Shown here in pieces: positions 112-20,014 of a stretch of 29,267 nucleotides of DNA; position 1 is the first letter of the stretch; each line of letters starts with the position of its first letter. The position numbers were made by a program, and so were the translations under genes. The stretch is from a virus, in IMG/VR virus record IMGVR_UViG_3300046000_003790, positions 1 to 29,267 of that record; one strand, written 5' to 3'. The notes beneath the pieces are model-generated. The model was given only the letters and a program-made list of their open reading frames with translations. It was not told the DNA's origin and did no database searches.

Positions 112-990
112 ATGGAAAACGCCCAAAAAATACAACTTGCGCTTGACTTTATTAAGTTCGCTTCTGGGCATATGAATTTACAATCTTTACCTAAGATAAT
201 ATTTACTACTGATAACAAGTGGGCAAAGCAAATGAGATCTTTTGGTCAATATGATCCTTCAAAAAAGTCTATAGTTACTTATGTAGAGAATCGTAATATG
301 GCAGATGTGCTTAGAACGCTCTGTCATGAATTAGTTCATCATAAACAGAACGAAGAAGGAAGATTAAAAGCTAATTCAGGAGAAACTGGATCAGACATAG
401 AAAACGAAGCTAATGCTACAGCTGGAATTGTGCTAAGAGAGTATGGAAAAGTAAATTCCATGATCTATGAAAGCAGACTTACTGAGGACCTAAAAGAATA
501 CGAGATTTATTGTGATATGGACGGAGTCCTTTGCGACTTTGATGCTCAATTTGATCATTACTTTGGAGAATCAGTAAAAGAGTATATAGCAGATAAAGGA
601 ATAAAGTCTTTTGAAAACGCTGTAAATGAAGCTGGCGAAGAATTTTGGATTACGATGCCTATGCTAGCAGGAGCAAAAGAGCTTTGGCAAAAAATAGGAA
701 AATATGGAGTAACAATATTATCTAGTCCAGGAGAGTTTGACGGTGCAAAAGAAGGCAAGATAAAGTGGATAAAAGAAAACTTAAGACCTTCTCCAAAAAA
801 AATAATATTTAAACAGACTGGTCAAAAGCACACCGAGATACAAGGAAAAGGCGAAGAGGCGATTAAGAAATCTGTATTGATCGATGATTACGGAAAGAAC
901 CTAAAGCCGTGGGAGAGCATAGGAGCGAAAGGCATCAAGCATTCAGCTGACACATTACAAAATACACTAGATTCTCTAGAAGAGTTATAA
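112..990 (+). CDS. Fusion of a zinc-metallopeptidase-like domain and a HAD-family 5'-nucleotidase-like phosphatase
   Basis: This 292-aa protein has two parts. Residues 1-120 carry a HExxH zinc motif (H72-E73-L-V-H76) followed by ENEANA, where E99 would be the third ligand, as in gluzincins of the ImmA/IrrE type. Residues 128-292 form a HAD phosphatase: motif I is DMDG with D135 and D137, motif II is LSSPGEF, and motif IV is LIDDYGKN with D258 and D259. This resembles the deoxy-pyrimidine 5'-nucleotidase (NT5C) group, which dephosphorylates nucleotides. The small size of the first domain argues for a minimal peptidase or an inactive scaffold. An LTE tripeptide at residues 123-125 lies exactly between the domains and could be a prohead-protease site. 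No Shine-Dalgarno is visible. The domain calls are firm; substrates are inferred. Confidence 0.85.
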   Translation: MENAQKIQLALDFIKFASGHMNLQSLPKIIFTTDNKWAKQMRSFGQYDPSKKSIVTYVENRNMADVLRTLCHELVHHKQNEEGRLKANSGETGSDIENEANATAGIVLREYGKVNSMIYESRLTEDLKEYEIYCDMDGVLCDFDAQFDHYFGESVKEYIADKGIKSFENAVNEAGEEFWITMPMLAGAKELWQKIGKYGVTILSSPGEFDGAKEGKIKWIKENLRPSPKKIIFKQTGQKHTEIQGKGEEAIKKSVLIDDYGKNLKPWESIGAKGIKHSADTLQNTLDSLEEL

Positions 991-1006
991 TAAAAATAAT
1001 AACGTT

Positions 1007-1579
1007 ATGAACCAAGGACAACTTAAAAAAGAGTTCACTAAAAAAGATGTGACTCGAATGAGGAATTTGATCACTGGAAAATTAGGAGACAAGACTCAAA
1101 TCCAATCTGGATACGAAAAAAAACAAGAAGATCATAAAGAAGGAGACGTTTGGCAAGATTCTAGTGGAAAAAGCTGGACTATTAAGAACGGAATCAAAAG
1201 AACTGCTACAAAGATGAATAATCTAAAAAAACTTGTAGTCATGCCTTTATCTTGTCCTAAGTGTAGCAAGCACATGAAGATAAACGATCTCAATAAGAAG
1301 ATGTATGCTACTCAAGGCACTTGTTTTGACTGTGTAATAGAGAAAGAACATCAAATAAGAATTTCAGGAGATTGGGAAAGCTATGCTAGTCAACAGATGA
1401 CTGCTAATAAGAATGAAAGCCTTAAAGATTTTGAGCAAGCGTTAGAAAGTTGGTATAAAGAGAAGGATGAATTCTTTACAGAAAACGGAGATATGGAGAA
1501 TTGGAGCACCGGGGACAAGAAAAAAGCTTACAAAGAGATCAAAGAGAAGATAGAAGAGTTTAAAAACATCAAACTCTAA
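1007..1579 (+). CDS. Zinc-ribbon phage protein, function unknown
   Basis: A 190-aa, lysine- and glutamate-rich protein. The centre has two CxxC pairs, C83/C86 (CPKC) and C106/C109 (CFDC), about 20 residues apart, as in a small zinc ribbon. Before it is the segment GDVWQDSSGKSWTIKNGIK, a pattern I associate with conserved proteins of marine T4-like phages. The C-terminal half is predicted helical and charged. Zinc binding is a confident reading; a role in nucleic-acid or virion binding is a guess. It follows the phosphatase fusion after a 16-base A/T-rich gap, and is followed by an ATATTTAT element. Confidence 0.75.
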   Translation: MNQGQLKKEFTKKDVTRMRNLITGKLGDKTQIQSGYEKKQEDHKEGDVWQDSSGKSWTIKNGIKRTATKMNNLKKLVVMPLSCPKCSKHMKINDLNKKMYATQGTCFDCVIEKEHQIRISGDWESYASQQMTANKNESLKDFEQALESWYKEKDEFFTENGDMENWSTGDKKKAYKEIKEKIEEFKNIKL

Positions 1580-1580
1580 C

Positions 1581-1590
1581 ATATTTATAA
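1581..1590 (+). promoter_or_regulatory. ATATTTAT element (candidate phage promoter or control site)
   Basis: ATATTTATAA lies in the 24-base gap, with 15 bases between the octamer and the next start. The same octamer recurs at five other gene boundaries in this window. It contains TATTTATA, the reverse complement of the T4 late promoter core TATAAATA. The function is inferred. Confidence 0.4.
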
Positions 1591-1603
1591 AAAATTAGTA
1601 CAA

Positions 1604-2230
1604 ATGCCAACAAAAGATAACGAAAGTCAAAGAAAACTATTCGGCGCAGCGCTAGCAGCTAAACGAGGAAATAAACCCATTAGTAAAAAAGTTGCTGATA
1701 TTGCAGCATCTACTTCAGAAAAAGAACTTAGTAAGATGGCTTCTAAAAACGAAGGAGCTGATGTTGGTCAAGAGTTTGATAACCAAGTTGGAGACTATTA
1801 TGCAGTTCAAAGGCCTTATGATGGCTGTGAACCTAATAAGTTAGTTCATAAAGTTAATCCTCTTCAAGGAGTTCAAGGTATTGGCGTTGAACCAGTACAA
1901 ATATACGGAGCTTACATAGAAGAAAAGATGGCAATGACTATGGCAGAAAAGCTCTGTAAAGAGTTTGTAGATGCTGGAATTATGCTAGAAAAGAAAAAAG
2001 AAACTGTAGTAAGTAAGATAAAGAGTGCTATTGATGAATTAGAAGCTCAAAGAGGCGCATGTGTAGGTATGATTAAAGAGAATCCTAAAGAATCTGGAGC
2101 TCAAAAAGAAAAGATAGCCCATCTAGCTACTAGAATAGACGATCTTATGACTAAACTTGAAAAAATAGAGAAGTCTAAGAAAGAAATAGAGAACAAAGAA
2201 GATAAGAAACAAGATAAAAAGAAAAAATAA
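1604..2230 (+). CDS. DUF3008-like N-terminus with a lysine-rich coiled-coil tail
   Basis: A 208-aa protein. The N-terminus (NESQRKLFGAALAAKRG, about residues 6-22) matches the DUF3008 type of short phage/bacterial proteins, which usually read SKAQQRxFG(A/M)xxAxKRG. Residues 60-110 are a separate compact segment (VGDYYAVQRPYDGCEPN...). From about 130 to the end it is a long charged helix, probably coiled coil, ending in a poly-lysine tail (KKQDKKKK). The basic tail suggests DNA contact or packaging in the head, but no enzymatic motif is seen. The stop overlaps the next start by one base (TAATG), so the two are translationally coupled. Confidence 0.7.
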   Translation: MPTKDNESQRKLFGAALAAKRGNKPISKKVADIAASTSEKELSKMASKNEGADVGQEFDNQVGDYYAVQRPYDGCEPNKLVHKVNPLQGVQGIGVEPVQIYGAYIEEKMAMTMAEKLCKEFVDAGIMLEKKKETVVSKIKSAIDELEAQRGACVGMIKENPKESGAQKEKIAHLATRIDDLMTKLEKIEKSKKEIENKEDKKQDKKKK

Positions 2231-2592
2231 TGGAACCATACGCCCTATTCATAGGTACCTTAATGCAGAGCCGTAATCAAGCTCACATTTATCATTTACA
2301 AACAAACTCTTTTGCAGCTCACAAAGCTTTGCAAGAGTATTATGAAGAAATTGTAGATCTTGTAGATGGTCTAGTTGAGTCTTATCAAGGAAAATATGGT
2401 ATTCTTCGTGGATACAGTATGCTTAATCAAATAAAAGAAGACGATAACGCAGTTCTTTACTTTGAAGGTCTTTGCAAATTCGTAGAGACGATTAGAACTA
2501 AGGTACCACAAGACTCTTTTATTCAAAACGAAATAGATAACGTAGTTAATCTTTTAGAATCTACAAAGTATAAGCTTAAATTTTTACATTAA
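2230..2592 (+). CDS. Dps/ferritin-like helical phage protein (DUF5856-like)
   Basis: A 120-aa all-helical protein. Residues 19-40 read H-IYHLQTNSFAAHKALQEYYEE, which follows the spacing of the Dps ferroxidase helix (H..W......F..LH..FE..Y.E): H19, H22, H31, E36 and E39/E40 are candidate metal ligands. Dps proteins bind DNA and iron and protect against oxidative damage. This one is shorter than cellular Dps (about 160 aa) and lacks a clear second ferroxidase helix, so it may be a minimal relative, the family I recall as DUF5856. It overlaps both neighbours by one base (TAATG and TAATGA). The fold call is moderate; iron oxidation is unproven. Confidence 0.6.
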   Translation: MEPYALFIGTLMQSRNQAHIYHLQTNSFAAHKALQEYYEEIVDLVDGLVESYQGKYGILRGYSMLNQIKEDDNAVLYFEGLCKFVETIRTKVPQDSFIQNEIDNVVNLLESTKYKLKFLH

Positions 2593-3047
2593 TGAACAAA
2601 CCTTCTCTAGATCAGATCAAAAAAGGCATCGAAGTAGAGATGGAACATACTTCTGATAAGAAAGAAGCATTAAAAATTGCTCTTGATCACTTATCAGAAG
2701 ATCCTATGTATTATGATAAGCTAGCCAAAGCTGGATTAGAAGAAGGACAATTTTGTCCTCATTGTCTTATAGAGTACATCTTAGAACACAGACATATTTT
2801 ACAAGAAGCTGAATATAAAGGACGTAAAGTTCAATTGGGAAAACCAATGGCTGGAGATACAAAGAAGTTTAAAGTCTACGTTAAAAACGCAAAAGGTAAC
2901 GTAGTTAAAGTAAACTTCGGACAAAAAGGAGTAAAGATAAAGAAAAACAATCCTGCAAGAAGGAAAAGTTTTAGAGCAAGACATCACTGCGACACTAATC
3001 CAGGACCTCGTTGGAAAGCAAGGTATTGGTCATGTAGAAAATGGTAA
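2592..3047 (+). CDS. Two-domain small virion-type protein (DUF5661-like N-terminus, basic Cys-containing C-terminus)
   Basis: A 151-aa protein. Residues 8-45 (GIEVEMEHTSDKKEALKIAL, then DHLSEDPMYYDKL) match the DUF5661 type, a helical domain common in T4-like phages. A CPHC pair (C55/C58) follows. Residues 74-151 are a very basic domain ending FRARHHCDTNPGPRWKARYW then SCRKW, with C133 and C148, a C-terminal signature I have seen in uncultured marine phage virion proteins. An LQE tripeptide (70-72) followed by A lies between the domains and would fit cleavage by the phage prohead protease. It overlaps the previous gene and is 1 base from the next. Confidence 0.65.
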   Translation: MNKPSLDQIKKGIEVEMEHTSDKKEALKIALDHLSEDPMYYDKLAKAGLEEGQFCPHCLIEYILEHRHILQEAEYKGRKVQLGKPMAGDTKKFKVYVKNAKGNVVKVNFGQKGVKIKKNNPARRKSFRARHHCDTNPGPRWKARYWSCRKW

Positions 3048-3048
3048 T

Positions 3049-3369
3049 ATGATAAGTATAACTGAGATATTAAAAGAAGTAAAAGAAACATTTGAAAATT
3101 TTGCTACTACTCGTGGTAAGGGTGCTGCTAAAATAGCATCAACTGCTGAAGAAAAGGGCGGATTATCTTTACTAACTTGGCATCATTTTAAAGTTAAAGC
3201 TCCATATTACAAAAAAGCTACTGAAGGCAAATTTGATAAAGAAGCAGCTATAAAAGAGTTTGAAAAAACACTAAAAAGCATATCATTAAATATGACCCAA
3301 ATTGAATTTCAACGTGAAGTAGGTCGTATGGAAGTATTAGGTGAATTATTAATCAGAGATAAAAAATGA
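3049..3369 (+). CDS. Small conserved phage protein with capsid-targeting-like leader
   Basis: A 106-aa protein starting MISITEILKE-V. The first ten residues end in LKE, matching the (L/I)xE cleavage rule of T4 gp21 and resembling the ten-residue leader of T4 internal proteins. The body (ATTRGKGAAKIASTAEEKGG, then LSLLTWHHFKVKAPYY) is a conserved segment in T4-like environmental phages with no known role. The downstream start overlaps this stop (ATGA). Packaging into the head is an inference from the leader. Confidence 0.65.
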   Translation: MISITEILKEVKETFENFATTRGKGAAKIASTAEEKGGLSLLTWHHFKVKAPYYKKATEGKFDKEAAIKEFEKTLKSISLNMTQIEFQREVGRMEVLGELLIRDKK

Positions 3370-4136
3370 TTAAATTAACCGATTTAATAAAAGAAATGGT
3401 ATTGTATGAAGAGCAAATGCAATCTGATGCTTGGAAGGCAATTACTAAAACTATTGATATCCTTAAAAAGAAAGATAAAATTTTATTATTAAGCTGCTCA
3501 AATAGGTATAATTGGGATGATAACGATATAGATATTCCAAAGTCAAAAATGATTGCAATGTACATACAAGATCAATTACGCGATAAATGTATATTGATCG
3601 ATGTTCCTGAACTTAATATTATAGCTTGCGAAGGTAATGTTTCAAGAAAAGACGGCAATAGCTGTGGAGTAATGAAATCTAAACTTAAAGATAAAGAAAA
3701 AAATCCATCTGGACATCACAGATGTTGGGCTAGTATTAACAATCCAAAAGACGAACTATGGAAGATCTCTAAAGAACTTCTACAATCAGACGCAGTAGTC
3801 TTTTTTAGTTCTATAAGATGGGGACAAACTAACATGTATTATCAAAACTTAATTGAGAGACTAACTTGGCTTGAGAATAGACACAATACGCTAGGCGAAT
3901 CTAATATTATTAAAGATATTGAAACGGGTTTTATCTGCACAGGTCAGAATTGGAACGGAGAATCAGTTAACGAAACACAGAAACAAGTCCACAAGTTTTA
4001 TGGATTTAAACCAAATAACGATCTGTATTGGAACTGGCAATATACTAAAAATGCAAATGACGAAACGCAAAAGTCGTATAAAAATTCATATAGTAAGTTC
4101 GAGAAAGACACAAAAATAAACAGCAATAACATATAA
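3366..4136 (+). CDS. Flavodoxin-fold NAD(P)H-dependent oxidoreductase with capsid-targeting-like leader
   Basis: A 256-aa protein. After the leader MIKLTDLIKE-MVLYE-E, residues 38 onward are a flavodoxin-like fold of the NADPH-dependent FMN reductase type. A first beta strand plus phosphate-loop region (KILLLSCSNRYNW) is followed by a second strand (CILIDVPELNI), a Cys-rich insertion (SCGVMKSKLKDKEKNPSGHH then RCW), then the strand/loop AVVFFSSIRWGQTN and helix LIERLTWLENRH. Such enzymes transfer electrons from NAD(P)H through FMN to quinones, metals or other acceptors; the acceptor cannot be told here. An enzyme with an LxE-ended leader in a run of similarly led proteins could be head cargo. 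It starts inside the stop codon of the previous gene and ends 1 base before the next. Confidence 0.75.
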   Translation: MIKLTDLIKEMVLYEEQMQSDAWKAITKTIDILKKKDKILLLSCSNRYNWDDNDIDIPKSKMIAMYIQDQLRDKCILIDVPELNIIACEGNVSRKDGNSCGVMKSKLKDKEKNPSGHHRCWASINNPKDELWKISKELLQSDAVVFFSSIRWGQTNMYYQNLIERLTWLENRHNTLGESNIIKDIETGFICTGQNWNGESVNETQKQVHKFYGFKPNNDLYWNWQYTKNANDETQKSYKNSYSKFEKDTKINSNNI

Positions 4137-4137
4137 A

Positions 4138-4482
4138 ATGATTAAGCTTACAGAAATATTAGATGAAATATTATCAGAAGCGTGCTGGGATGGTTACCAA
4201 CAGCTAGGAATGAAAAAGAAAGGAAAAAGAATGGTTCCTAATTGCGTTAGAGTTAAAGAGGAAAAAAAAGGACCAAAATTAAATCCTGCGTATCTTACTA
4301 AAGATGCAGCGCAAATGAAAAAAGATATAAAAGACAGAAAAAGCTTAAAATCTGATGATTCAGCTGCTTATGGAAAATGGGACGCAGACTATATAGATAA
4401 GGCTAAAACAAAAAAGTATAAAACTAGAAAGTCAACCTCTACTACTGCATACGAAAAAAGATTTGGAAAAAAAGAAAAATAA
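4138..4482 (+). CDS. Small basic phage protein with leader and conserved CWxGY motif
   Basis: A 114-aa protein starting MIKLTEILDEILSE-A, with LxE-type cut points at E14 and, less well, E10 (LDE). Immediately after the second site is CWDGYQQLGMKKKGKRMVPN then C, a motif that recurs at the start of many environmental T4-like phage proteins. The C-terminal half is lysine-rich and has the pattern KWDADYIDKAKTKKYKTRKS followed by AYEKRFGK. No catalytic motif is seen. It is likely a DNA-binding or internal head protein, by composition and by leader. It has one base of spacing to its upstream neighbour and five to the next. Confidence 0.65.
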   Translation: MIKLTEILDEILSEACWDGYQQLGMKKKGKRMVPNCVRVKEEKKGPKLNPAYLTKDAAQMKKDIKDRKSLKSDDSAAYGKWDADYIDKAKTKKYKTRKSTSTTAYEKRFGKKEK

Positions 4483-4487
4483 GACAT

Positions 4488-4775
4488 ATGATAAAGCTAA
4501 TAGATATACTAAAAGAAATGTTTATTTTTGAATATGACCCACAAACAGAAAAAGCTTTAGCAAATAAAGCAAAATCTACAGGTATATCAAAAACTATACT
4601 AAAAAGTGTTTACGCAAAAGGTCTAGGAGCTTGGAAAACAGGACATCGTCCAGGCGCAGGTCAACATCAATGGGCTATGGCAAGAGTAAATTCTTTTGTA
4701 ACTGGAAAAGGTGGAGCTAGAAAAGCAGACAAGACGTTATGGAAAAAAGCAAGTAAATCAAAAAAGAAAAAATAA
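4488..4775 (+). CDS. DUF5824-like small basic protein with leader
   Basis: A 95-aa protein beginning MIKLIDILKE-MFIFE-Y, almost the same leader as its neighbours. The body has GISKTILKSVYAKGLGAWKT then GHRPGAGQHQWAMARVNSF, the core of a family I recall as DUF5824, present in many phage and some bacterial proteins. The C-terminus is poly-lysine (KKASKSKKKK). The strong positive charge and leader favour an internal DNA-associated head protein. The biochemical activity is unknown. Confidence 0.7.
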   Translation: MIKLIDILKEMFIFEYDPQTEKALANKAKSTGISKTILKSVYAKGLGAWKTGHRPGAGQHQWAMARVNSFVTGKGGARKADKTLWKKASKSKKKK

Positions 4776-4777
4776 TT

Positions 4778-5272
4778 ATGGAAAACAGTCTTTCGTATTA
4801 CAGAAACATATTGCTACAAGAAGTTGATCTTCCTGGAAATCAAGAAAAGATAGATGTAGCTGAGCCTAAGGGTAAAATAACAGCCGCTGACTTCAAGGCA
4901 CTTCGTGCTAAGAAAGGTATGAAGAAAGAAGTTAATACACCTAATCCTCCAACTGACTATTCAGGAAAACCATCTATTCCAGGTCTTGGTCCTATTGTAG
5001 ATATGGAAGAAGGTGAAGATCATGAAGTTTCTATGGCTAACAATAGTCTAGAGACTATCATCAAAGCTGCTATGGAGCTTAAGGCCAAAATGGGAAATCA
5101 AGAGAAAGATATTCCAGCATGGATTCAAGATCATATCACTAATGCTGCTAATTTCATTACTCAAGCTTCTGAAAACTATCATGAGTATTCTAATGGTCAT
5201 GATCAAGAAGATCAACCAGAGCAAGATAATGTAACTTCACTATTTGAAATACTAAAATCAAAAAAGAAATAG
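4778..5272 (+). CDS. Conserved helical phage structural-type protein with leader
   Basis: A 164-aa protein starting MENSLSYYRNILLQE-V (LQE site at residue 15). Residues 30-75 are low-complexity and proline-rich. Residues 82-140 form a helical unit (HEVSMANNSLETIIKAAMEL ... IPAWIQDHITNAANFITQAS) that I know as a repeated short module in cyanophage and other T4-like virion proteins. The end is acidic, then basic (KSKKK). The unit commonly sits in head or internal proteins, so a virion role is likely. It sits 1 base upstream of the endolysin start. Confidence 0.65.
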   Translation: MENSLSYYRNILLQEVDLPGNQEKIDVAEPKGKITAADFKALRAKKGMKKEVNTPNPPTDYSGKPSIPGLGPIVDMEEGEDHEVSMANNSLETIIKAAMELKAKMGNQEKDIPAWIQDHITNAANFITQASENYHEYSNGHDQEDQPEQDNVTSLFEILKSKKK

Positions 5273-5273
5273 A

Positions 5274-5873
5274 ATGGACATCAACAAACTAAAAGGACAT
5301 ATTCCTGACACAGTAATTGCACAGCTTCCTGACACAATCGCTAAGTTTGAACTTAACACTCCGCTAAGACTTGCTCATTTTCTAGCTCAAGCTGGTCATG
5401 AATCTGGTGGATTTAAAGCTGTTAATGAGAACTTAAATTATGGAGCCAAAGGATTATTAGGTATATTTAAAAAGTATTTTCCAACTCCAGAAAAAGCTGC
5501 TTTATATGAAAGAAAGCCAGAAAAAATCGCTAATTTGGTATATGGTGGTCGTATGGGTAACGGTCCTGAAACTTCTGGTGAAGGTTACAAGTATCGTGGT
5601 CGTGGTTACATTCAGCTTACTGGTAAAGATAACTATAAAGCCTTTGACTTGGTTGTTGCAGAAAATATCACAGAGAATCCGGATCTAGTAGCTACTAAGT
5701 ATCCATTGCTTTCAGCAGCTTGGTTTTTCCATAAGAACGGTCTTCACAAGATCGCTGACAAAGGAGCGACTGATGCTGTAGTAACAGAAGTAACAAAAAG
5801 AGTGAATGGCGGAACAATCGGACTTCCAGACAGGCTTAAGCACTTTAAAGAGTATCACGATCTCTTAAAGTAA
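5274..5873 (+). CDS. Endolysin, glycoside hydrolase family 19 (chitinase-like lysozyme)
   Basis: A 199-aa protein with the GH19 fold used by phages to cut peptidoglycan at the end of infection. The catalytic signature AGHESGGF places the acid at E43. The second conserved block, YRGRGYIQLTGKDNY (107-121), is the substrate-cleft loop typical of GH19 muramidases/chitinases. The helical C-terminus LSAAWFF...VTKRVNGG is also typical (VNGG). No signal peptide or cell-wall binding domain is visible, so export must rely on a holin or membrane disruption. The gene lies between the cargo-like genes and a membrane-protein pair that may complete lysis. Length is normal for a single-domain GH19 endolysin. 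Confidence 0.93.
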   Translation: MDINKLKGHIPDTVIAQLPDTIAKFELNTPLRLAHFLAQAGHESGGFKAVNENLNYGAKGLLGIFKKYFPTPEKAALYERKPEKIANLVYGGRMGNGPETSGEGYKYRGRGYIQLTGKDNYKAFDLVVAENITENPDLVATKYPLLSAAWFFHKNGLHKIADKGATDAVVTEVTKRVNGGTIGLPDRLKHFKEYHDLLK

Positions 5874-5928
5874 CCAAGAACATATATTTTTTTATTGTCG
5901 GAAAAATTCGATAGATTTGCTAAAAAAC

Positions 5929-7887
5929 ATGAAAGACTTAGAAATTCTAAAAAGATTGCTAGCAGAAGCTGAGGAAGAAGAAACTAACGTAGACACAGAA
6001 TCTTCCGAAGAAGAAACTGTTGAAGAGCCAAAACCCGGTTCTTTTGAAGCAGATCCTATGGGATTCATACTTAAAAAGTATCATAGTCTTAATGAGCTAA
6101 TGATCGAGTTAATGACTAAGGACTTTCAAGAGTATGTTGATGGCATCTTTGTAATGGCTCCAAAACCGACTACGTTTAAGATTCAATTGCACAACGGTCA
6201 ATTTTTCTTTTTAGTTTATCTAGGAAAAGCTTACGAAGCTACAATAGAAGGCAAAAAGTATTATTTGATGGGAATCGGTGAGAAAGAAAGATGCATGACC
6301 GCAATCGCTAGACTTCTTAGATTCGGAACTCCACTAAAAACTCAAGGACCTGAAGGCGCAGAACAAGCTACAAGAGACGAAGAAAATACAGGAATGGAAG
6401 GAGATTGGGCTGCAAAAGGTGGAGCTACTGGCGGAATGGAGCCAGAAGCGGGTGCAGAAGAAGCTCCACCAGAAGAAGGAGGAGAAGCATTAGCAGAAAA
6501 TAAAAAAATAATAGAAAGTATTTTAAAAAAATCAATAGTTACAGAATTGACAATTACTCCAGATTACAAAACTAAAAAAGGATCTAATCCTTATTACACA
6601 GTAAATTTAGATACAGACGAAAAGGTAAAATCCTCACTAAAACTATCTGGAGAACTAGTTTACAAAAGCATAAGCGATATACCTAGTGGTAAAAAAGATT
6701 CGTACTCTGATCCAAAAGGAGCTTATAAATTTGAAGTAATGACAGTTAATGACGAAGGCAAATTATCGTCAACAAAAAAATATGTTAGTCTAGCAAAAAA
6801 GTCAGTAACAGGACATTATGGTGAAAAGAGCACAGGCTCTGGTGGAGGTGCAGCACAAACAGCTGTACAAGAATCATCTCAATGTTTAGTTAATGCAATT
6901 AGATATAACAAAGGATCAGAGATTACTGAAAAAGATTTAAACGAAAAAAATTTTGCAAGAGCAACTAAACGTATTGAAACTACATCTAGTTTAGAGGAGA
7001 TGATGTCTTTTATACAAGATAATTCTTCATGGAAAACATCTTTAATTTCTACAGCAAACGCATTAGCTAAGCAATTTCCAGGTAACTTTAAATTCTATCG
7101 CGGTCAAGGAGTAGCAACTGCTGTAGATCAAGCAGCGAAAAGTTGTTTGAAATTAATAGTAGGGAACCTTAACATAAACAAGTGGAATCCCGCTGATATA
7201 TGGATGGCATCTGATAATTTAGATATAAGTAGTATACCACAAAATACAGAGATAGATAAGCTAAATAAATGGATGAAAGCTAAATATAAGTTAAAAGAAC
7301 TTATTGGAGTGTCTCTTAAAAAGTGCGGTGAAGATTGTAAATTGACAGTTTATAATCTAAAAGAAATAGAAAGACCAGAAAAGTTTGAAGGATTAGGACC
7401 AAAAGATACCAACTTCTTTAAGTCTCTAGACATTTATATAAAGTATACAGATGGCCTTATACAATTTAGAAACTTTTCAAACATAACAAGCTGGCAAGGA
7501 GAAATAAAATCTAAGACCGCTGCCGGTGGGAAAATAGGTGGAGGTGGAGTAAGTATGGTCGTTTCTCTACAAGGAAAACAAGATTCTTTACCCCAACAAT
7601 CAGAAGTGTTAGCAGCATGCAAATCTGCTGATGAAAAAACAGCTAGTGATCTATATAAAAAGTATAAATCTATCTCACTACTGAAAAGTAAAATGAAAGA
7701 GGAAGAGTTCATAGAAACATTTTTATCTGCTCCTTTATCTAGTAAAACTAGCAACTATATGAATATAGAATTACTTAATAGATTAAGTAAGATGTCTGAA
7801 GAAGAAAAAGATAAGTTTGTTCAAGGTCTCATATCTTATGCTAAGTCAGAAACTAATGTGTCTTCAGTGTTTGTAAAAGCATCATAA
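5929..7887 (+). CDS. Large virion-type protein of unknown function (two regions, LxE leader)
   Basis: I take the ATG at 5929 (652 aa) rather than an in-frame TTG at 5917, because nearly all genes here use ATG and this gives the leader MKDLEILKRLLAE-A. Residues 14-130 include a compact domain (PMGFILKKYHSLNELMIELM...), then an acidic/Gly/Ala linker (about 140-190) ending LAE-NKK. The second region (195-652) has a Gly-rich break, then AAQTAVQESSQCLVNAIRY, FYRGQG, and KWNPADIWM (D423) followed by GVSLKKC (S462, K464, K465). The D...(S)xK spacing faintly resembles PD-(D/E)xK nucleases, but the match is weak. The family recurs as a large unnamed protein in T4-like environmental phages. A head-internal role is inferred from the leader only. 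Confidence 0.6.
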   Translation: MKDLEILKRLLAEAEEEETNVDTESSEEETVEEPKPGSFEADPMGFILKKYHSLNELMIELMTKDFQEYVDGIFVMAPKPTTFKIQLHNGQFFFLVYLGKAYEATIEGKKYYLMGIGEKERCMTAIARLLRFGTPLKTQGPEGAEQATRDEENTGMEGDWAAKGGATGGMEPEAGAEEAPPEEGGEALAENKKIIESILKKSIVTELTITPDYKTKKGSNPYYTVNLDTDEKVKSSLKLSGELVYKSISDIPSGKKDSYSDPKGAYKFEVMTVNDEGKLSSTKKYVSLAKKSVTGHYGEKSTGSGGGAAQTAVQESSQCLVNAIRYNKGSEITEKDLNEKNFARATKRIETTSSLEEMMSFIQDNSSWKTSLISTANALAKQFPGNFKFYRGQGVATAVDQAAKSCLKLIVGNLNINKWNPADIWMASDNLDISSIPQNTEIDKLNKWMKAKYKLKELIGVSLKKCGEDCKLTVYNLKEIERPEKFEGLGPKDTNFFKSLDIYIKYTDGLIQFRNFSNITSWQGEIKSKTAAGGKIGGGGVSMVVSLQGKQDSLPQQSEVLAACKSADEKTASDLYKKYKSISLLKSKMKEEEFIETFLSAPLSSKTSNYMNIELLNRLSKMSEEEKDKFVQGLISYAKSETNVSSVFVKAS

Positions 7888-7896
7888 AAATAAAAA

Positions 7897-8268
7897 ATGA
7901 ATAAAACAATTAATACCATAAAGAATTGGCTACCTATTGTTAAAATTATTCAGTATATTGCAATAGTAATAATTGTATTGTATTTCGCAATTCAATTATT
8001 AACCTCAAAAAGAGAGATCTCTGGCGATTTTAAAGCTCAGTTAGACAGCTTACAAAAAGTTACAGTCGCTCTTCAAAAACAACAGAAATCTTACGATAGC
8101 ACAATATCCTTAGAAGAAGAAAAGATAAAAGAGTTGGACTATCAGATAGATCATGTAAAAGAAAAAACTACAATAATAAAAGAATACTATCATGAACAAA
8201 GTAAAGCTGCTGATAGCTATACTCCTACTCAGCTCGACAGTTTTTTCGCAAAGCGTTACGGATACTAG
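7897..8268 (+). CDS. Inner-membrane coiled-coil protein, spanin-like (i-spanin candidate)
   Basis: A 123-aa protein with a short cytoplasmic N-terminus, one transmembrane segment (about residues 14-35, IVKIIQYIAIVIIVLYFAIQ), and a periplasmic coiled coil (about 45-105). This is the architecture of Rz-type i-spanins, which link inner to outer membrane in the last step of lysis of Gram-negative hosts. The last 77 bases are overlapped in another frame by a second gene with a signal peptide, as Rz1 lies in Rz. It is two genes downstream of the endolysin. The topology is clear; the spanin role is inferred. Confidence 0.55.
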   Translation: MNKTINTIKNWLPIVKIIQYIAIVIIVLYFAIQLLTSKREISGDFKAQLDSLQKVTVALQKQQKSYDSTISLEEEKIKELDYQIDHVKEKTTIIKEYYHEQSKAADSYTPTQLDSFFAKRYGY

Positions 8269-8602
8269 TAAGCTACAGATAAGCTATCCAGTAGCAAAAA
8301 TGATTGTTAAAGATCTCATTAAAGGAGATTCATCTTTTGCGATGCTAAAAGTAAAAGAAGACCAGCTAACTCTTACAGAAAAAAAGGTCGCAGTTAAAGA
8401 CAGTATTATAAGTATGTATAAGCTTAAAGAACTTAACTATCTTAGTCAAGTTAATAATGAAACTGCTAAAGTAGAAGGCTGGCAAAAGCAATACTCTGAG
8501 CTCTATAAACAACACAGAAAACTAAAAGTAAAATACAGGTTCACGCAAATATTGTCTTATGCAATTGTTGGTGGACTTGGATACTTGTACATCACCAAAT
8601 AA
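8192..8602 (+). CDS. Signal-peptide protein overlapping the spanin-like gene; C-terminal membrane segment
   Basis: A 136-aa protein starting 77 bases inside the preceding gene in another frame. The start is supported because it supplies a clean signal peptide (KVKLLIAILLLSSTVFSQ, cut near residue 19-20). The next in-frame ATG (residue 37) would remove it. FSQ at the cleavage point is typical of Bacteroidota. The middle is a long charged helix (about 45-115), and a hydrophobic segment (about 118-134, ILSYAIVGGLGYLYI) ends the protein. There is no lipobox cysteine, so it is not a standard Rz1 lipoprotein. It could anchor by the C-terminal helix, or the pair may be a non-spanin membrane complex. 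Its stop overlaps the terminase start (TAATG). Confidence 0.6.
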   Translation: MNKVKLLIAILLLSSTVFSQSVTDTSKLQISYPVAKMIVKDLIKGDSSFAMLKVKEDQLTLTEKKVAVKDSIISMYKLKELNYLSQVNNETAKVEGWQKQYSELYKQHRKLKVKYRFTQILSYAIVGGLGYLYITK

Positions 8603-10200
8603 TGTCAGAACAACAAATTTCCATAAAGGATAAAGTAAAAGAAGAGTTTATAAAATGCGCAACAGATCCTGTGTATTTTATGAAAAAGTACTACATGATT
8701 CAGCATCCTCAAAGAGGTCGAATGCTATTCAATCTGTATCCTTTTCAAGAGAAAGTATTACGATTATTTCAAAATAATAAGTTCTCTGTAATTAACAAAT
8801 CAAGACAGTTAGGTATATCGACCCTAGTATCAGCGTATTCTTTATGGTTAATGTTATTCCAAAAAGATAAGAACGTTCTTGTAATTGCGACTACTCAGGC
8901 TACTGCAAAGAACATGGTAACTAAGGTTAGATTTGCCTATCAGAATCTACCATCGTGGCTTAAAATACCAGCTTCAGAAGACAACAGATTAAGTCTTAGA
9001 TTAAATAATGGATCACAAATTAAAGCTGTTTCTGCAGCTGGAGACGCAGCCAGATCTGAAGCAGTAACTTTGCTAGTAATTGATGAAGCTGCGTTTATTG
9101 ATAGAATCGAAGAGATCTTTACTTCTGCTCAACAAACATTGGCTACTGGTGGTGGCGCTATAGCATTGTCTACTCCTAATGGTGTAGGTAACTGGTTTCA
9201 CCAAACTTATAGTAAGGCTCAAAAGAAAGAAAACAGTTTTTTACCCATATCTTTACCTTGGACGGTTCATCCTGAAAGAAATCAAGAATGGAGAGATCAA
9301 CAAGACAAAGATCTTGGAGTAAGAAGCGCAGCTCAAGAGTGCGATTGTGACTTTGTAACTTCTGGTAACACAGTAATTCCTCCTGATGTCTTAAACTGGT
9401 ATGAAGCAAATACATTAAAAGAACCTCTAGAGATGAGAGGAATGGATAAAGGTTACTGGATATGGGAATATCCAGATCCTATGAAGTACTATACAGTTAT
9501 AGCTGACGTAGCAAGAGGCGATGGTGCTGACTTCTCCGCTTTTCAAGTCTTAGAAATGGAGACAATGACACAAGTCGCTGAATACAAATCTCAACCAGGA
9601 ACAAGAGAGTACGCTAATGTGCTTTTATCAGCAGCTACGGAGTATAATCATGCATTATTAGTAGTAGAAAATGCAAGTATTGGATGGGATGTAGTTCAAT
9701 CAGTAGTCGAAAGCGGATATCCAAATGTACACTATAGCTATAGAACAGAGATTGGAATGGACTTTCAAAAGTATCTAGATAAGTATCAGACCTCAAATTC
9801 AGCTTTAGTTCCAGGATTCTCTACTACAGGTAAAACAAAGCCGCTAGTTATTGGAAAGATGAGAGATTTCATAGAGAATAAGTTTGTAACCATAAGATCA
9901 CTAAGGCTTTTAGAAGAGCTTAGGGTATTTATATGGAAAAATGATAGCGGACAAGCAATGAACGGATATAATGACGATCTAGTAATGGCTTTCGCAATAG
10001 GAATGTATTTAAGAGATACTTCGTTAAGATATAAAAACACTGCAGACAGTCTTTTAAGAAACAGTCTAAATAATTTTACAAAAACCGATTCAGGTTTTCA
10101 AGCATATAACGCAAACAGTTCATTTAACAGTAACCCTTGGATGATGGATATACCAAGTCAAAATGGTATGGAAAGTCAAGATCTTCGGTGGTTATTATAA
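8602..10200 (+). CDS. Terminase large subunit (T4 gp17-like)
   Basis: A 532-aa packaging motor ATPase/nuclease. The N-terminal ATPase has Walker A SRQLGIST (67-74), Walker B LLVIDE (157-162, D161/E162) and the coupling motif STP (190-192). The C-terminal RNase H-fold nuclease has D302 (VIADVARGDGAD), E356 (LLVVENASIGWD) and D458/D459 (YNDDLVMAF), equivalent to the T4 catalytic triad D401/E458/D542. It is shorter than T4 gp17 (610 aa), mainly at the N-terminus. It cuts concatemeric DNA and pumps it through the portal into the prohead. No small terminase subunit is recognisable next to it: the upstream overlapping gene is a membrane protein. The portal follows after 20 bases, without sheath and tube genes between. 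Confidence 0.97.
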   Translation: MSEQQISIKDKVKEEFIKCATDPVYFMKKYYMIQHPQRGRMLFNLYPFQEKVLRLFQNNKFSVINKSRQLGISTLVSAYSLWLMLFQKDKNVLVIATTQATAKNMVTKVRFAYQNLPSWLKIPASEDNRLSLRLNNGSQIKAVSAAGDAARSEAVTLLVIDEAAFIDRIEEIFTSAQQTLATGGGAIALSTPNGVGNWFHQTYSKAQKKENSFLPISLPWTVHPERNQEWRDQQDKDLGVRSAAQECDCDFVTSGNTVIPPDVLNWYEANTLKEPLEMRGMDKGYWIWEYPDPMKYYTVIADVARGDGADFSAFQVLEMETMTQVAEYKSQPGTREYANVLLSAATEYNHALLVVENASIGWDVVQSVVESGYPNVHYSYRTEIGMDFQKYLDKYQTSNSALVPGFSTTGKTKPLVIGKMRDFIENKFVTIRSLRLLEELRVFIWKNDSGQAMNGYNDDLVMAFAIGMYLRDTSLRYKNTADSLLRNSLNNFTKTDSGFQAYNANSSFNSNPWMMDIPSQNGMESQDLRWLL

Positions 10201-14037: not shown

Positions 14038-14901
14038 ATGAAAACTGAAGTAAAACATCTTCAAAAATTAGCTGGGATCTTAAAAGAATCAGTAGAAGAA
14101 GGCGATCGTATTAAAGTAGTATATGGTAATGAATTCTATGGAGAAACTGGAACTGTTAAAGAAGTTAGAGGTGGATTTATTGTCGTTAGTATAGATGGAA
14201 AAGACGGAGAGTACAGCATGCATATGTCTGATGTAGAAAGGACAGAAGACGAGGAAAATGACGATGATTTCTATGATGAAATGGAAGAGGGAGAAATTAA
14301 TGAAGCAGCTTATGTTCCTGAAAATGTAGCAAAGTTTGCAAAACGTAAAGGCGTTACTTCATTAGTAAACAAAGTGGCCAATTGGGCAGAAAAATCAGGT
14401 AAAAAAATAAGAGGTGGCACTGCAATTGGAAAAAACTACGATACTCTTATACTTGATCTAAGCCATCAAGATAGCGCTATATACATTAATATTCCAGAAG
14501 AAACTGTAGAGTTATATGGAGAACCAGTATTTGATGCGAAATCATTTGCAAAAGTATTAGCATCACAATCTAGCGATGAAAATCTATCAGAAATAGATAG
14601 AAATGATCCTAATTTAATGGCAATGAGAGCTAAAAAAGATGCTCCAAAACCTAAATCTCATAAACCAAATCTAAATCAATCTAAAATCAAAATGCTTCTT
14701 AAAAAGAAAGCTGAGGTTGAAAGAGATATGGAACAAGAAGCAGAGCCAGAAGGTGGACCTATAGCGGATAAGTACGGCGATACGCTAAATAGGATTGATA
14801 AAGCAATTGCTAAATTAAAAGGACAAGGCGAATGGGGTCCAGAAACTAATTCATATATGGATAAAGGAGAGATTGAAAGAAGAGCTTCAACAATAAAATA
14901 A
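14038..14901 (+). CDS. Probable prohead-core/internal protein with LxE leader and KOW-like domain
   Basis: A 287-aa protein starting MKTEVKHLQKLAGILKE-S. This LQKLAGxxxES leader is common at the N-terminus of marine T4-like phage head proteins and ends with an (L/I)xE prohead-protease site at E17. Residues 20-62 (GDRIKVVYGNEFYGETGTVK) are a KOW/SH3-like barrel, followed by an acidic linker. Residues 92-180 form a mixed alpha/beta domain (KFAKRKGVTSLVNKVANWAE...). The rest is a lysine-rich helix and linker. Its place between portal and protease matches the T4 core genes. No enzyme motif is seen. Confidence 0.65.
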   Translation: MKTEVKHLQKLAGILKESVEEGDRIKVVYGNEFYGETGTVKEVRGGFIVVSIDGKDGEYSMHMSDVERTEDEENDDDFYDEMEEGEINEAAYVPENVAKFAKRKGVTSLVNKVANWAEKSGKKIRGGTAIGKNYDTLILDLSHQDSAIYINIPEETVELYGEPVFDAKSFAKVLASQSSDENLSEIDRNDPNLMAMRAKKDAPKPKSHKPNLNQSKIKMLLKKKAEVERDMEQEAEPEGGPIADKYGDTLNRIDKAIAKLKGQGEWGPETNSYMDKGEIERRASTIK

Positions 14902-14919: not shown

Positions 14920-15051
14920 ATGGCAAAGACAAAAGGTTCAAGCAACGCAACAAAAATTAGTTTCGGAAAAAGAAAAAAAGGTAAAGCACAAAAATCATTT
15001 AACAAACACGATAGATCGGAAAAGAACTATCGCGGACAAGGAAAAGCATAA
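14920..15051 (+). CDS. 43-aa highly basic conserved phage protein
   Basis: A short gene, MAKTKGSSNATKISFGKRKK at the start and NYRGQGKA at the end. 14 of 43 residues are Lys/Arg against 2 acidic ones, so it should bind DNA or an acidic scaffold. I have seen close versions (SNATKxSFGKRKxGKAxKS...YRGQG) in other environmental T4-like phages, which supports it being real despite its size. It fills the gap between two head-region genes, and its stop codon abuts an ATATTTAT element. The position corresponds to the small T4 core genes (67/68), though the charge is opposite to acidic gp67. A head-internal DNA condensing peptide is the simplest guess. Confidence 0.75.
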   Translation: MAKTKGSSNATKISFGKRKKGKAQKSFNKHDRSEKNYRGQGKA

Positions 15052-15062: not shown

Positions 15063-16484
15063 ATGACAATAGCTAAACTATACGAGAACCATAAGAAAGG
15101 AAAAGTTTCAAAACAATCCTTCTTGAACGAAGCAAGAAAAGACGCAAATCTTCCTTGGGTAAATAACTTTACTTCTTATGAAGATGCAGTTAAGATCCTA
15201 AAGAACAAAGGAATCCTTAGCGAAGTAAATTTAAACGTTCCTGGAGCTGTTGGATCAAGCAATCAGCGCGTTCAATATGATTCGTATTCTAGTAATGCTG
15301 AATTAAATGAAGACTCTCTTACAGTCGATGGAAAGACAGTTAAAACATATACACAAAATGGTGATAAGTCATATAATGTTAAGTATGACGATGGAATCGA
15401 AGATACTATTTCTGTAAGCCACGATGATTGGGATAAAATTAATGATTTAAAACTAAGTACTACTCAATCTTTAAACGAAACTTATAAGCTAACTACTACT
15501 CAAATCATAGACAGACTTAATCCATATGCTTTTAAAGATGCGATGGAGTTTGAGCTATCTAAGATCAAAGAAAAGCTTACAGACGAAATCTATGAAAAGA
15601 CTAGGGAGAAAGTTGCTAAAAAGATGGCAAAAAATCCTGAAGCTTATCGTGATACTCAATTAGCCAATACAAAAGACATTCAGAAAAAAGATAAGAAGCT
15701 TGCAATGGTCGATGTCAAAGACAATAACACTGTCGACAAAGACAACGAAATGAAAAAGATAAAAGGCTTTGAAGCAAAAAAGAATACTTCCGCTCCTAAG
15801 ACAGAAAACAGGAAAGGTAAACCAAAGGGAGTAAAAGAAATGAAAAGCAGTAAGAAGAAGCCTGCTGGAGTTAAAGAGGTAATGAAGCAAGAAAGCAAAG
15901 AGAAAGTGCTTAATGAAATGAGTGAATTCTTTAAAAAAAAAGATAGACTAAAAGAAAATACTGCAAGTCCTGCTCATCGTACTGACTATAATAAAGGAAC
16001 AAAGATCAAAACCCCAGAAGGCGAAGCAACAGTAACTGAAGTTATCGGATCAGTAATATACTACGAGCTAGAAGGCGGAATAGAAGGATCAAAAACGCTT
16101 AACGTTATAGACAAGATAAATTCAAAAAATATGTCTCCAGAAGACATGAAAAAAGCGCAAGACGCAAAAGATAAAGAAGAAAGAGATAAAATGTGGAAAG
16201 ATTGGGATAAAAGAGGAGAAAAACCTTTTGGTGGAATGCTTACAGATCCTGAATACTTTAAAAAGCCTTTAGACTACAAAAATCTAATGGAGAAAATCAA
16301 AAAAGTATTAGATAAGTTAAAGATGAAGAAAGAAGGAAGCGTAATAATGACTAAGACGGGTACAGCAGTAGGAGCTAGCAAAAATCCAGGAGATGCGTTT
16401 AAAAAAGCTTTAGATCTTCGTCAACAAACAGGAGATCAATTCGATGTTTTAGATACCAGAACTGGTCAAAAAAAGAAAGTATAA
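15063..16484 (+). CDS. Probable prohead-core/internal head protein with leader
   Basis: A 473-aa, Lys/Glu-rich protein. The N-terminus MTIAKLYENHKKGKVSKQSF then LNE-ARKDANLPWVNNF, followed by SYEDAVKILKNKGILSE, is a block I recognise from head-region proteins of environmental T4-like phages. It contains an LNE-A candidate cleavage site at E23. Residues 82-120 (VDGKTVKTYTQNGDKSYNVK) and 317-350 (GTKIKTPEGEATVTEVIGSV) look like small SH3/KOW-like beta units. Residues 165-300 are a charged helix with many lysines. The end (KTGTAVGASKNPGDAFKKAL then DLRQQTGDQFDV) is a separate compact domain. It ends four bases before the protease gene, suggesting co-production as a core protein. Confidence 0.65.
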   Translation: MTIAKLYENHKKGKVSKQSFLNEARKDANLPWVNNFTSYEDAVKILKNKGILSEVNLNVPGAVGSSNQRVQYDSYSSNAELNEDSLTVDGKTVKTYTQNGDKSYNVKYDDGIEDTISVSHDDWDKINDLKLSTTQSLNETYKLTTTQIIDRLNPYAFKDAMEFELSKIKEKLTDEIYEKTREKVAKKMAKNPEAYRDTQLANTKDIQKKDKKLAMVDVKDNNTVDKDNEMKKIKGFEAKKNTSAPKTENRKGKPKGVKEMKSSKKKPAGVKEVMKQESKEKVLNEMSEFFKKKDRLKENTASPAHRTDYNKGTKIKTPEGEATVTEVIGSVIYYELEGGIEGSKTLNVIDKINSKNMSPEDMKKAQDAKDKEERDKMWKDWDKRGEKPFGGMLTDPEYFKKPLDYKNLMEKIKKVLDKLKMKKEGSVIMTKTGTAVGASKNPGDAFKKALDLRQQTGDQFDVLDTRTGQKKKV

Positions 16485-18361: not shown

Positions 18362-20014
18362 ATGGCAAACCTAGTAAATTCCCTACTTAGCGAGTCAGCA
18401 AAAACAGCACACTTTGATCAACATAGTGTTGCTAACAAGCTTGCTGCTAAGTGGCAAAAATCAGGTCTTCTTAAAGGCCTCAATGAGAGCGAGCGCTCTA
18501 ACATGTCAGTAATTCTCGAAAACCAAGCTAAGCAATTGGTTGTTGAAACTACACAAACTAACGGAGGTCTTAACTCTGGCGGTGCAACCTTTACCCCTGG
18601 TACTGGTGAGCAATGGGCTGGTGTAGCTCTTCCTTTGGTTCGTAAGATCTTCGGTCAAATCGCTTCTAAAGAGTTCGTTTCAGTTCAACCGATGAACCTT
18701 CCTGCAGGTCTTGTATTCTATTTGGATTTCCAATATGGTAACAATAAGACGCCTTTCGCAGACGGTAGCTCAGTATATGGTACTCCAAGTGCTAAATTTG
18801 GTAACCTTGCTGAAGGTGGTCTTTATGGCGCTGGCAAATTCGGATTCTCTTTGAATCAGTTCACTGCTTCTGGTATTAGCGTAACTATTACATCTGCTTC
18901 TTTTGCTGATGTTAACTTTGATTCTTCTGTATCTGCATCAGTTGCAGTTGGATTGATAAAAAAAGTTGCAGTTCCTACTTCTTCTTTGACTACTCCAAAC
19001 CTTGACGGTGTAAGGTCTTTCGTAGCTATTTCTGGTTCTAACTTTACCACCGTAGCTAACGATCTATTCCCTGCTTTCACTGAATTAGTTGGTGGAAATA
19101 TCAATTTCTACTTCACTGGTTCTACAGCAGAATTGGCAGTAGCAACAGGTTGGTCAGTTTTCTATAATAAAGCTACCGACTTCAATACACGTGGTGATTT
19201 CGAAGACAGGTCTGGCGCTCCTTCAGTTCCTAACTCTCTTTCTAACACTTCTATCGTTATCCCTGAGATCAACGTTCAAATGAAGAGCCAAACCATCTCT
19301 GCTAAAACTCGTAAGTTGAAAGCACAATGGACTCCAGAATTTGCACAAGATCTTAACGCTTATCATTCTTTGGATGCTGAAGCTGAATTGACTGGCATGC
19401 TTTCTGAGCATATCTCTCTTGAGATTGACCTCGAAGTTCTTGACATGTTGATCCAAAATGCTCCTATCAACGAAGTATGGTCAGCTAAAGTCGGTAACCA
19501 ACTTAATGCAGGTGGTACTGGATTTGATTCTAATACAGCTGGTGTATATTACACTCAAATGTCTTGGTTCCAAACAATTGGTATCAAACTTCAAAAAGTT
19601 AGCAATATCATCCATCAGCGCACAATGCGCGGAGGTGCAAACTTCATGGTTGTTTCTCCAGCAGTAGCTACCATCTTGGAATCAATTCCTGGATTCGCAG
19701 CTGATACTGACGGTGCAGCAGATACAATGAAGTATGCTTTCGGCGTACAAAAGATCGGTGCCCTTAATTCTCGCTACAAGGTTTACAAAAACCCTTATAT
19801 GCTTGAGAACGTAATTCTTATGGGTTACAAAGGCGGTCAATTCCTTGAGTGCGGAGCGGTTTATAGCCCTTACGTTCCATTGATCATGACTCCATTGATC
19901 TACGATCCGAACACCTTCACTCCTAGAAAAGGTATCATGACTCGCTACGCGATGACCATGGTTCGTCCTGAATTCTACGGAACTGTAGTTGTTTCTGATC
20001 TTAACATTGTCTAA
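18362..20014 (+). CDS. Major capsid protein (T4 gp23-like)
   Basis: A 550-aa precursor, similar in size to T4 gp23 (521 aa), with the HK97-type capsid fold expected of this family. Conserved blocks include LVRKIFGQIASKEFVSVQPM, KTRKLKAQWTPEFAQDLNAY then HSLDAEAELTGMLSEHISLE, and GYKGGQFLECGAVYSPYVPL. The propeptide is about 60 residues: VVE62-T aligns with the T4 cut after E65, and ILE53-N is an alternative that fits the (L/I)xE rule better. Base use differs from neighbours, with more GGT, GCT, CTT and AAC codons, as expected for the most highly expressed virion gene. It ends in a strong terminator. Confidence 0.97.
   Translation: MANLVNSLLSESAKTAHFDQHSVANKLAAKWQKSGLLKGLNESERSNMSVILENQAKQLVVETTQTNGGLNSGGATFTPGTGEQWAGVALPLVRKIFGQIASKEFVSVQPMNLPAGLVFYLDFQYGNNKTPFADGSSVYGTPSAKFGNLAEGGLYGAGKFGFSLNQFTASGISVTITSASFADVNFDSSVSASVAVGLIKKVAVPTSSLTTPNLDGVRSFVAISGSNFTTVANDLFPAFTELVGGNINFYFTGSTAELAVATGWSVFYNKATDFNTRGDFEDRSGAPSVPNSLSNTSIVIPEINVQMKSQTISAKTRKLKAQWTPEFAQDLNAYHSLDAEAELTGMLSEHISLEIDLEVLDMLIQNAPINEVWSAKVGNQLNAGGTGFDSNTAGVYYTQMSWFQTIGIKLQKVSNIIHQRTMRGGANFMVVSPAVATILESIPGFAADTDGAADTMKYAFGVQKIGALNSRYKVYKNPYMLENVILMGYKGGQFLECGAVYSPYVPLIMTPLIYDPNTFTPRKGIMTRYAMTMVRPEFYGTVVVSDLNIV

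Follow-up and report, generated by a model that had tools for sequence, protein, structure and literature searches.

The 29,267-nucleotide virus record IMGVR_UViG_3300046000_003790, analysed here over its full length and referred to as the window, carries a T4-type head block and, upstream of the gene for gp17, an array of small genes on one strand (112-7887) that we interpret as a head-cargo cassette. Unrelated proteins of this array begin with short leaders that resemble the capsid-targeting sequence (CTS) of the phage T4 internal proteins. We propose that the prohead protease gp21 cuts at these leaders and so releases the proteins, both single and fused, that they are carried in the head and that they are probably injected, a reading whose probability we place at about 0.84.

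The sequence of events that we infer is as follows. An amphipathic leader of 10-15 residues would bind the gp22 core, drawing the protein into the prohead, where gp21 would cut after an (L/I)xE motif and free the cargo before DNA packaging. Fused multi-module proteins would in addition be separated into their modules by gp21, at hydrophobic-LxE segments that lie between them. The freed proteins would remain inside the capsid and would probably pass into the host along with the DNA.

Leaders and Their Significance

In order to avoid fitting a pattern to our own data we have drawn one from T4. In amber-suppressor studies of the IPIII CTS (MKTYQEFIAE), targeting was assigned to residues 4 and 7 and processing to residues 8 and 10 (PMC9026906), and the strict pattern M..h..h[LI].E (E10) was set in advance from these data. 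All six leaders quoted in a sequence-only reading of the window are present, in open reading frames (ORFs) 3049, 3366, 4138, 4488, 4778 and 5929, the last of these being an ATG start inside the TTG-started ORF 5917. They are listed below with the related N-termini of the head region, arrows marking predicted cuts.

3049..3078, plus strand: leader MISITEILKE↓ of ORF 3049-3369; T4-register match, predicted gp21 cut after E10
3366..3410, plus strand: leader MIKLTDLIKE↓MVLYE↓ of ORF 3366-4136; T4-register match, Glu 15 invariant
4138..4179, plus strand: leader MIKLTEILDE↓ILSE↓ of ORF 4138-4482; T4-register match
4488..4532, plus strand: leader MIKLIDILKE↓MFIFE↓ of ORF 4488-4775; T4-register match, Glu 15 conserved
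4778..4822, plus strand: leader MENSLSYYRNILLQE↓ of ORF 4778-5272; LLQE↓, then VDLPGNQEK
5929..5967, plus strand: leader MKDLEILKRLLAE↓ of ORF 5929-7887; core match, retained in relatives
14038..14088, plus strand: class-B leader MKTEVKHLQKLAGILKE↓ of ORF 14038-14901, head region; LAGI-type
15063..15131, plus strand: N-terminal segment to FLNE↓ of ORF 15063-16484, head region; weaker candidate, from sequence
18362..18394, plus strand: gp23 N-terminus MANLVNSLLSE↓; from sequence, recurs in gp23 of many relatives

A motif search against a shuffled control had been suggested as a check, and in this search the strict pattern occurs in four window genes (3049, 3366, 4138, 4488), compared with a mean of 0.051 and a maximum of 2 in 1000 residue shuffles of the window N-termini. 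When the core is accepted in any register within the first 20 residues it is found in 7 window genes versus 0.56 expected (shuffle maximum 5), with 5929, 14038 and gp23 matching in other registers. Among the relatives the final Glu of the core falls most often at residue 10 (14 cases; positions past residue 35 have about 1 each), and a strict scan of T4 as positive control returns IPII, IPIII, gp24 and gp61.1. The leader observation as a whole is confirmed, far above chance.

Some of its parts have to be adjusted. The leader of 4778 (LLQE) has the LxE ending, yet does not match the stricter hydrophobic register. The same form had been claimed for two head-region proteins; 14038 has a core match, and 15063 is weaker, ending in LxE (FLNE) without the stricter hydrophobic register, and the majority of its orthologues do not match the core pattern. 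Nor do the six leader proteins form an unbroken run, since a leaderless GH19 endolysin (5274-5873) intervenes. Further sites have been added, namely MANLVNSLLSE↓S in gp23 and the LxE joints inside the proteins encoded at 112-990 and 2592-3047.

Two side observations concern T4 itself. The gp61.1 protein (L206:18966-19130, minus strand), 54 amino acids long and of hypothetical status in the annotation, has the N-terminus MKTFKEFIKE-D, almost the same as the CTS of IPII/IPIII, and is a candidate for an unrecognised internal protein. The gp23 start in the window, MANLVNSLLSE-S, resembles that of T4 gp24, MAKINELLRE-S, as though a vertex-protein-like propeptide had been placed on the major capsid protein.

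Could the resemblance simply reflect chance, or a composition rich in Leu and Glu? LxE is a frequent motif, about 2% of N-termini contain the core by chance, and T4 has more than 10 loose matches, many of them in genes not known to encode virion proteins. The shuffle and internal-position controls are nevertheless exceeded many-fold, there is the spike at position 10, and the signal depends strongly on genome location, so that we regard this explanation as scarcely credible. It is refuted for the set as a whole; single weak leaders, such as that of 15063, could still be chance.

The presence of several MIKL genes in tandem raises a second possibility, that the shared N-termini are relics of duplication or a 5' recombination handle without function in the protein. 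Codon usage differs among the four MIKL-type leaders of the window, and their likeness therefore lies at the protein level; recent duplication of gene 5' ends is rejected on these codon differences. Moreover, the residues that are critical in T4 mutants are constant and their neighbours variable, and we consider a duplication or recombination origin very improbable.

Orthologue alignments allow the cut sites to be placed more carefully, and tandem LxE sites prove to be frequent in leaders of the window type. In T4, a leader with Glu changed to Asp keeps its targeting function, but processing is blocked. In the 3049 family ILKE, LLTE or LLRE is retained in 11 distinct orthologues, including that of Flavobacterium phage immuto. 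For 3366, E15 (LYE↓) is found in 13/13 sequences and E10 in the 12/12 that bear a leader, with L13 and E10 near-invariant. Orthologues of 4488 keep E15 (IFE or ILE↓) in 20 of 21 cases, and their residue 10 is mostly Q. Relatives of 4138 sometimes lose E10 (ILEK, ILDQ) and retain LSE↓A at the start of the module, so residue 14 (ILSE↓) appears to end the constant site. The invariant Glu at 15 in the 3366 and 4488 families rules out E10 as a universal cut site. The earlier leader assignments thus stand, but three of the proposed cuts (3366, 4138, 4488) are to be moved to residues 14-15, and MIKLIDILKE-M is probably not the final cut.

Genomic Distribution

The comparison was extended to 159 IMG/VR loci around gp23 or gp17, stretches of near-complete relatives (103-183 kb) and immuto. 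Counting non-redundant families, the core leader is present in 29 of 85 (34%) in the 15 kb upstream of gp17 and in 15 of 49 in gp20-gp22. Further upstream it occurs in 21 of 333 families (5-13% across distal upstream regions) and, in the tail plus distal regions, in 7 of 221 (3%; 0-6% in tail and distal downstream), the difference between the region upstream of gp17 and the tail/distal set being significant at p=2e-12. Equal leader frequency in early, non-virion genes had been named as the result that would speak against packaged cargo; the values, 34% upstream of gp17, 5-13% in distal upstream regions and 0-6% in tail and distal downstream regions, are far from equal.

Several leader classes recur on unrelated proteins: MIKLxxILxE in 16 families, the LAGI type (RMQKLAGIIxE-like) in about 30 and NFxxKKFLxEN in 8. 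In immuto (MW353176) the proteins at 1803, 103762, 117587 and 118588 have a long leader in common, MENFDLKKFLVENKL, and leaders also occur at 24977 and 25470, distant from the head genes; cargo genes are thus not limited to one cassette. Leader-bearing proteins of immuto (host LMO8) include QQO92101, a nucleotidase, QQO92104, QQO92105 and QQO92108.

Leader proteins might instead be components of the prohead core or scaffold, like T4 gp67 and gp68, that are cut and largely expelled in maturation and not delivered. Leaders are indeed frequent in the gp20-gp22 block, where the T4 core genes reside, and several leader proteins (4138, 4488) are small and Lys-rich. Many of the carriers upstream of gp17, however, are enzyme-like (flavodoxin-like, NT5C, Zeta-type kinase, cytidylyltransferase, KWDG ligase-like), as suits cargo, and homologues have been detected in finished virions. 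We judge a core role to be an unlikely account of these proteins.

Association with Virions

The inference that the leader proteins are packed in the head gains support, beyond the frequencies above, from virion proteomics of two relatives, cyanophages S-CREM2 and S-SM1. The S-CREM2 virion proteome has been published (PMC10665884 Table 3), and among the first 199 annotated ORFs the strict T4-register leader is found on 4 of 43 virion-detected and 1 of 156 undetected proteins (p=0.008). The detected carriers are an S-adenosylmethionine (SAM) hydrolase (MKDFDSFLEE↓), gp13 (MKDLHSFLTE↓), a kinase (MKRFDAFLTE↓) and a cytidylyltransferase (MKNFSSFLTE↓), and control motifs (D, K or E.L) show no enrichment among the detected proteins of this phage. 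S-CREM2 gp160, an LxE-linked multi-module protein that contains the 4138 module of the window after LEE↓, was detected by mass spectrometry with 7 unique peptides (PMC10665884). A cytidylyltransferase is likewise present in S-SM1 virions (PMC3037559). As read from the sequences, the T4-type leader offers an independent argument that the S-CREM2 enzymes lie inside the virion.

Two further S-CREM2 proteins detected in virions have near-leaders, the Cas9-like nuclease gp12 (L214:7704-10313; RFASFMAE-A) and gp136 (L216:7301-8014; MQTFSMFFSE-D), which suggests that the L/I position may tolerate Met or Phe.

Fused Modules and Their Joints

The same modules are found in two forms: as single proteins preceded by a leader, and as parts of fusions whose joints are rich in LxE. 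Two genes of the window array are of the fused kind.

112..990, plus strand: two-module protein, HExxH metallopeptidase-like plus NT5C/HAD nucleotidase; PHROG 2643, E=1e-22
2592..3047, plus strand: two-module protein, DUF5661 plus PHROG 7595 module; joint ILQE↓, residues 69-72

The joint of 112-990 reads SRLTE↓DLKE↓ (about residues 121-129), and its nucleotidase occurs as a stand-alone protein with a leader in immuto, in Melnitz and at loci L226 and L230. In HTVC008M the PHROG 7595 module of 2592-3047 comes after LEE↓ (E=1e-21), and it is found again in Melnitz (E=1e-13). The two forms can be compared directly in three pairs: MNLIKILLSE↓GGTGGHMAHPFD alone versus NLLTE↓GGAAGHMAHPFD fused downstream of a nucleotidyltransferase; MIKLIDLLTE↓SVFPF alone versus FRINE↓ISYPS fused downstream of the nucleotidase; and MKTLKQLLLTE↓EDFFPKYQIYCDMDGV alone versus SRLTE↓DLKE↓YEIYCDMDGV in the window. 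Window genes 4138 and 4488 form a single gene in one relative, with SINE↓G between them, and the 4778 module is preceded in one relative by an internal KLNE↓, then KDLPGNQEK. In a single Melnitz protein (L213:13583-15535) a cytidylyltransferase is joined to the modules of three window genes (4138, 4488, 2592), DUF5824 being preceded by QLDE↓, and in the isolate Mel-JY01 MGKLINILLSE↓ precedes two modules that NNIIAE↓ separates.

In order to quantify these joints we have used a filtered set of 39 family pairs, in which LxE lies at the joint in 21 versus 5.4 expected (0 of 10,000 resamplings); D, Q and K control motifs are flat. An initial test on the full protein set, with tail repeats and truncated genes still in it, gave a diluted signal (1.5-fold), and a second was inflated by fragments of one gene, hence the filtering. 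In a three-module protein from locus L093, 6 of 7 LxE sites fall within two low-confidence interdomain stretches of an AlphaFold2 model; the low confidence of this model (predicted local distance difference test (pLDDT) score of 57) arises because the alignment is shallow, and no fold claims rest on it. At least two disparate domains per polypeptide, the hallmark of polyvalent proteins, are found in 112-990, L093 and the Melnitz fused proteins.

It could also be argued that short helical N-termini serve elsewhere, at a membrane, a replication site or a partner protein, and that LxE is incidental; 3366 does have a predicted amphipathic N-terminal helix, and such helices are multipurpose. Set against this are the exact T4 register, a signal specific to Glu with D, K and Q controls flat, the adjoining head genes, the conservation of LxE at joints and the link to virions, and we find a role elsewhere improbable.

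A number of observations weigh against head cargo released by gp21. Cassette genes 1007, 1604, 2230 and 5274 have no leader, nor does the P-HM1 cytidylyltransferase, a cargo homologue, and a 74% identical homologue of the 3366 reductase (L229:3010-3750), on a 187-kb contig, sits among unrelated genes without the ten-residue leader. Gene starts in unannotated contigs are those of our own gene caller. Joints are enriched about 2.5-fold in other Glu patterns as well, so that part of the joint signal is general Glu richness of linkers, and some joints lack LxE. The S-CREM2 counts are low and cover the first 199 ORFs; ORFs 200-221, most of them for tail proteins, would somewhat weaken p=0.008 if added. 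The authors of that study note that abundant proteins may co-purify and leave open whether the enzymes are truly inside (PMC10665884). Finally, the cited proteomes belong to cyanophages, which have leaders (MKxFxxFLTE) unlike MIKLxxILxE, and we found no virion proteome for immuto, the window phage or a close relative.

The head-cargo reading can be carried one step further, and we lean slightly towards doing so. T4-superfamily phages may draw on a shuffled library of modules, deployed singly behind a leader or as a polyprotein with leader-like (L/I)xE joints, with gp21 acting as a polyprotein processor, as in RNA viruses, and with pre-made nucleotide, NAD and redox enzymes delivered at injection.

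Candidate Cargo Proteins and the Head Block

The remaining features of the cassette are the following.

3079..3369, plus strand: mature part of ORF 3049, 96 amino acids; no known family
3411..4136, plus strand: flavodoxin-like flavin mononucleotide (FMN)/NAD(P)H reductase fold, ORF 3366, predicted from an AlphaFold2 model and structure search
4180..4482, plus strand: CWxGY..GMKKKG..VPNC module, ORF 4138, by homology to parts of fused proteins
4533..4775, plus strand: DUF5824 module (PF19141), ORF 4488; E=5e-18
5274-5873, plus strand: GH19 endolysin, leaderless and not counted as cargo; PHROG 181 E=6e-65, PF00182
5968..7887, plus strand: large cargo candidate, ORF 5929; C-terminal PHROG 1462 domain, E=3e-54

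Proteins 3049, 3366 and 4778 have no significant match in Pfam or PHROGs. The AlphaFold2 model of 3366 has a pLDDT of 69, and its best 49 PDB matches, headed by FMN azoreductases and NQO1/NQO2, have E values of 9e-6 to 9e-4 with template-modelling (TM) scores of only about 0.4; as modelled, the protein is predicted to fold as a flavodoxin-like FMN/NAD(P)H reductase. The 4138 module is homologous to parts of fused proteins of Melnitz, P-HM1, S-PM2 and the virion-detected S-CREM2 gp160. DUF5824 lies within fused proteins of Melnitz (8e-22) and HTVC008M (4e-18), directly after LDE↓ or IDE↓. The 5929 protein is homologous to PHM1_160 of P-HM1 (E=2e-33), and 2230 is DUF5856 by profile search. Relatives add a Zeta-toxin-like kinase, DUF6934, DUF6267 with a KWDG ligase-like motif and a cytidylyltransferase. 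The DUF6267 and cytidylyltransferase genes of S-PM2 (L211:4983-6762) appear broken or rearranged relative to P-HM1, the DUF6267 gene being short and the rest read at the start of the following gene.

The head block comprises:

8602-10200: gp17
10221-12119: gp20
16489-17118, plus strand: gp21 prohead protease; PHROG 207, E=6e-48
17351-18337, plus strand: gp22-like scaffold; 5.8 LxE per 100 amino acids, assigned by position and composition
18362-20014: gp23

That the window encodes gp21 is borne out. In an alignment with T4 gp21 5jbl (E=4e-13) the window protein has His and Ser at two positions where the 5jbl chain reads Ala, which we take to be mutations of catalytic residues; a gp21-family protease with its catalytic residues, as expected alongside capsid-targeted internal proteins of the T4 type, is therefore predicted at 16489-17118. 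The gp22-like ORF has no significant family match in profile searches. The isolates closest in gp23 are immuto (56%), Microcystis phage Mel-JY01 (49%) and Rhodothermus phage RM378 (37%), and from this order the aquatic phage is, by sequence, placed as a distant T4 relative within the T4 superfamily, probably of Bacteroidota. In megablast the window matched none of the named phages.

Downstream of the endolysin gene, 7897-8268 (membrane helix) overlaps 8192-8602 (signal-like N-terminus), with the look of a spanin pair. Between the portal and gp21 genes, 14920-15051 encodes a basic 43-residue protein (MAKTKGSSNATKISFGKRKKGKAQ...) whose family has members at the same place in about 70 related loci.

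Comparison with Known Systems

Marine T4-like phages have many conserved genes of unknown function, and their virion proteomes keep yielding enzymes without explanation. A readable leader would permit genome-wide prediction of head-loaded proteins, testable on existing mass-spectrometry data, and leaders would be natural tags for loading chosen proteins into the heads of phages of Bacteroidota and cyanobacteria. If gp21 does cut the joints, the head protease is a polyprotein processor in DNA phages. Our search of the open-access literature turned up no account of such leaders in these phages, of their diversification into classes or of joints in fused cargo that carry head-protease motifs, which does not prove that none exists. 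The principle of a targeting leader was already known from T4; its breadth, the diversified leaders and the polyprotein form appear to be new.

It is known that T-even internal proteins are diverse behind a common targeting sequence (PMC3012670; PMC9026906). The window proteins are like the T4 CTS proteins (IPI, IPII, IPIII, Alt) in having a propeptide with hydrophobic residues at 4 and 7 and (L/I)xE at 8-10, in the presence of gp21 and scaffold in the same genome, and in the unrelated mature parts behind a common leader. They differ in that the phages here have many more carriers and several leader classes (MIKLxxILxE, LAGI-type, NFxxKKFLxEN), that LxE is often in tandem with the predicted cut conserved at 14-15, that the cargo is mostly enzyme-like and that multi-module fusions occur.

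Polyvalent proteins are multi-domain proteins predicted to be co-injected, with release by a built-in metallopeptidase proposed (Iyer et al. 2017, PMC5512222). They share with the fused proteins here the mixing of peptidases, nucleotide enzymes and other domains, whereas the joints here carry the gp21 (L/I)xE motif and the modules also occur singly behind leaders. In the giant phage SPN3US many head proteins are described, some of them cleaved by the prohead protease before ejection (PMC5694885, PMC7411985); this is a different phage group, likened by description only. The closest parallel in content is with the virion-associated enzymes of S-CREM2 and S-SM1, with which modules are held in common (CWxGY, cytidylyltransferase). 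These enzymes (cytidylyltransferase, kinase, SAM hydrolase) were reported without a loading mechanism, and the T4-type leader on those of S-CREM2 would supply one.

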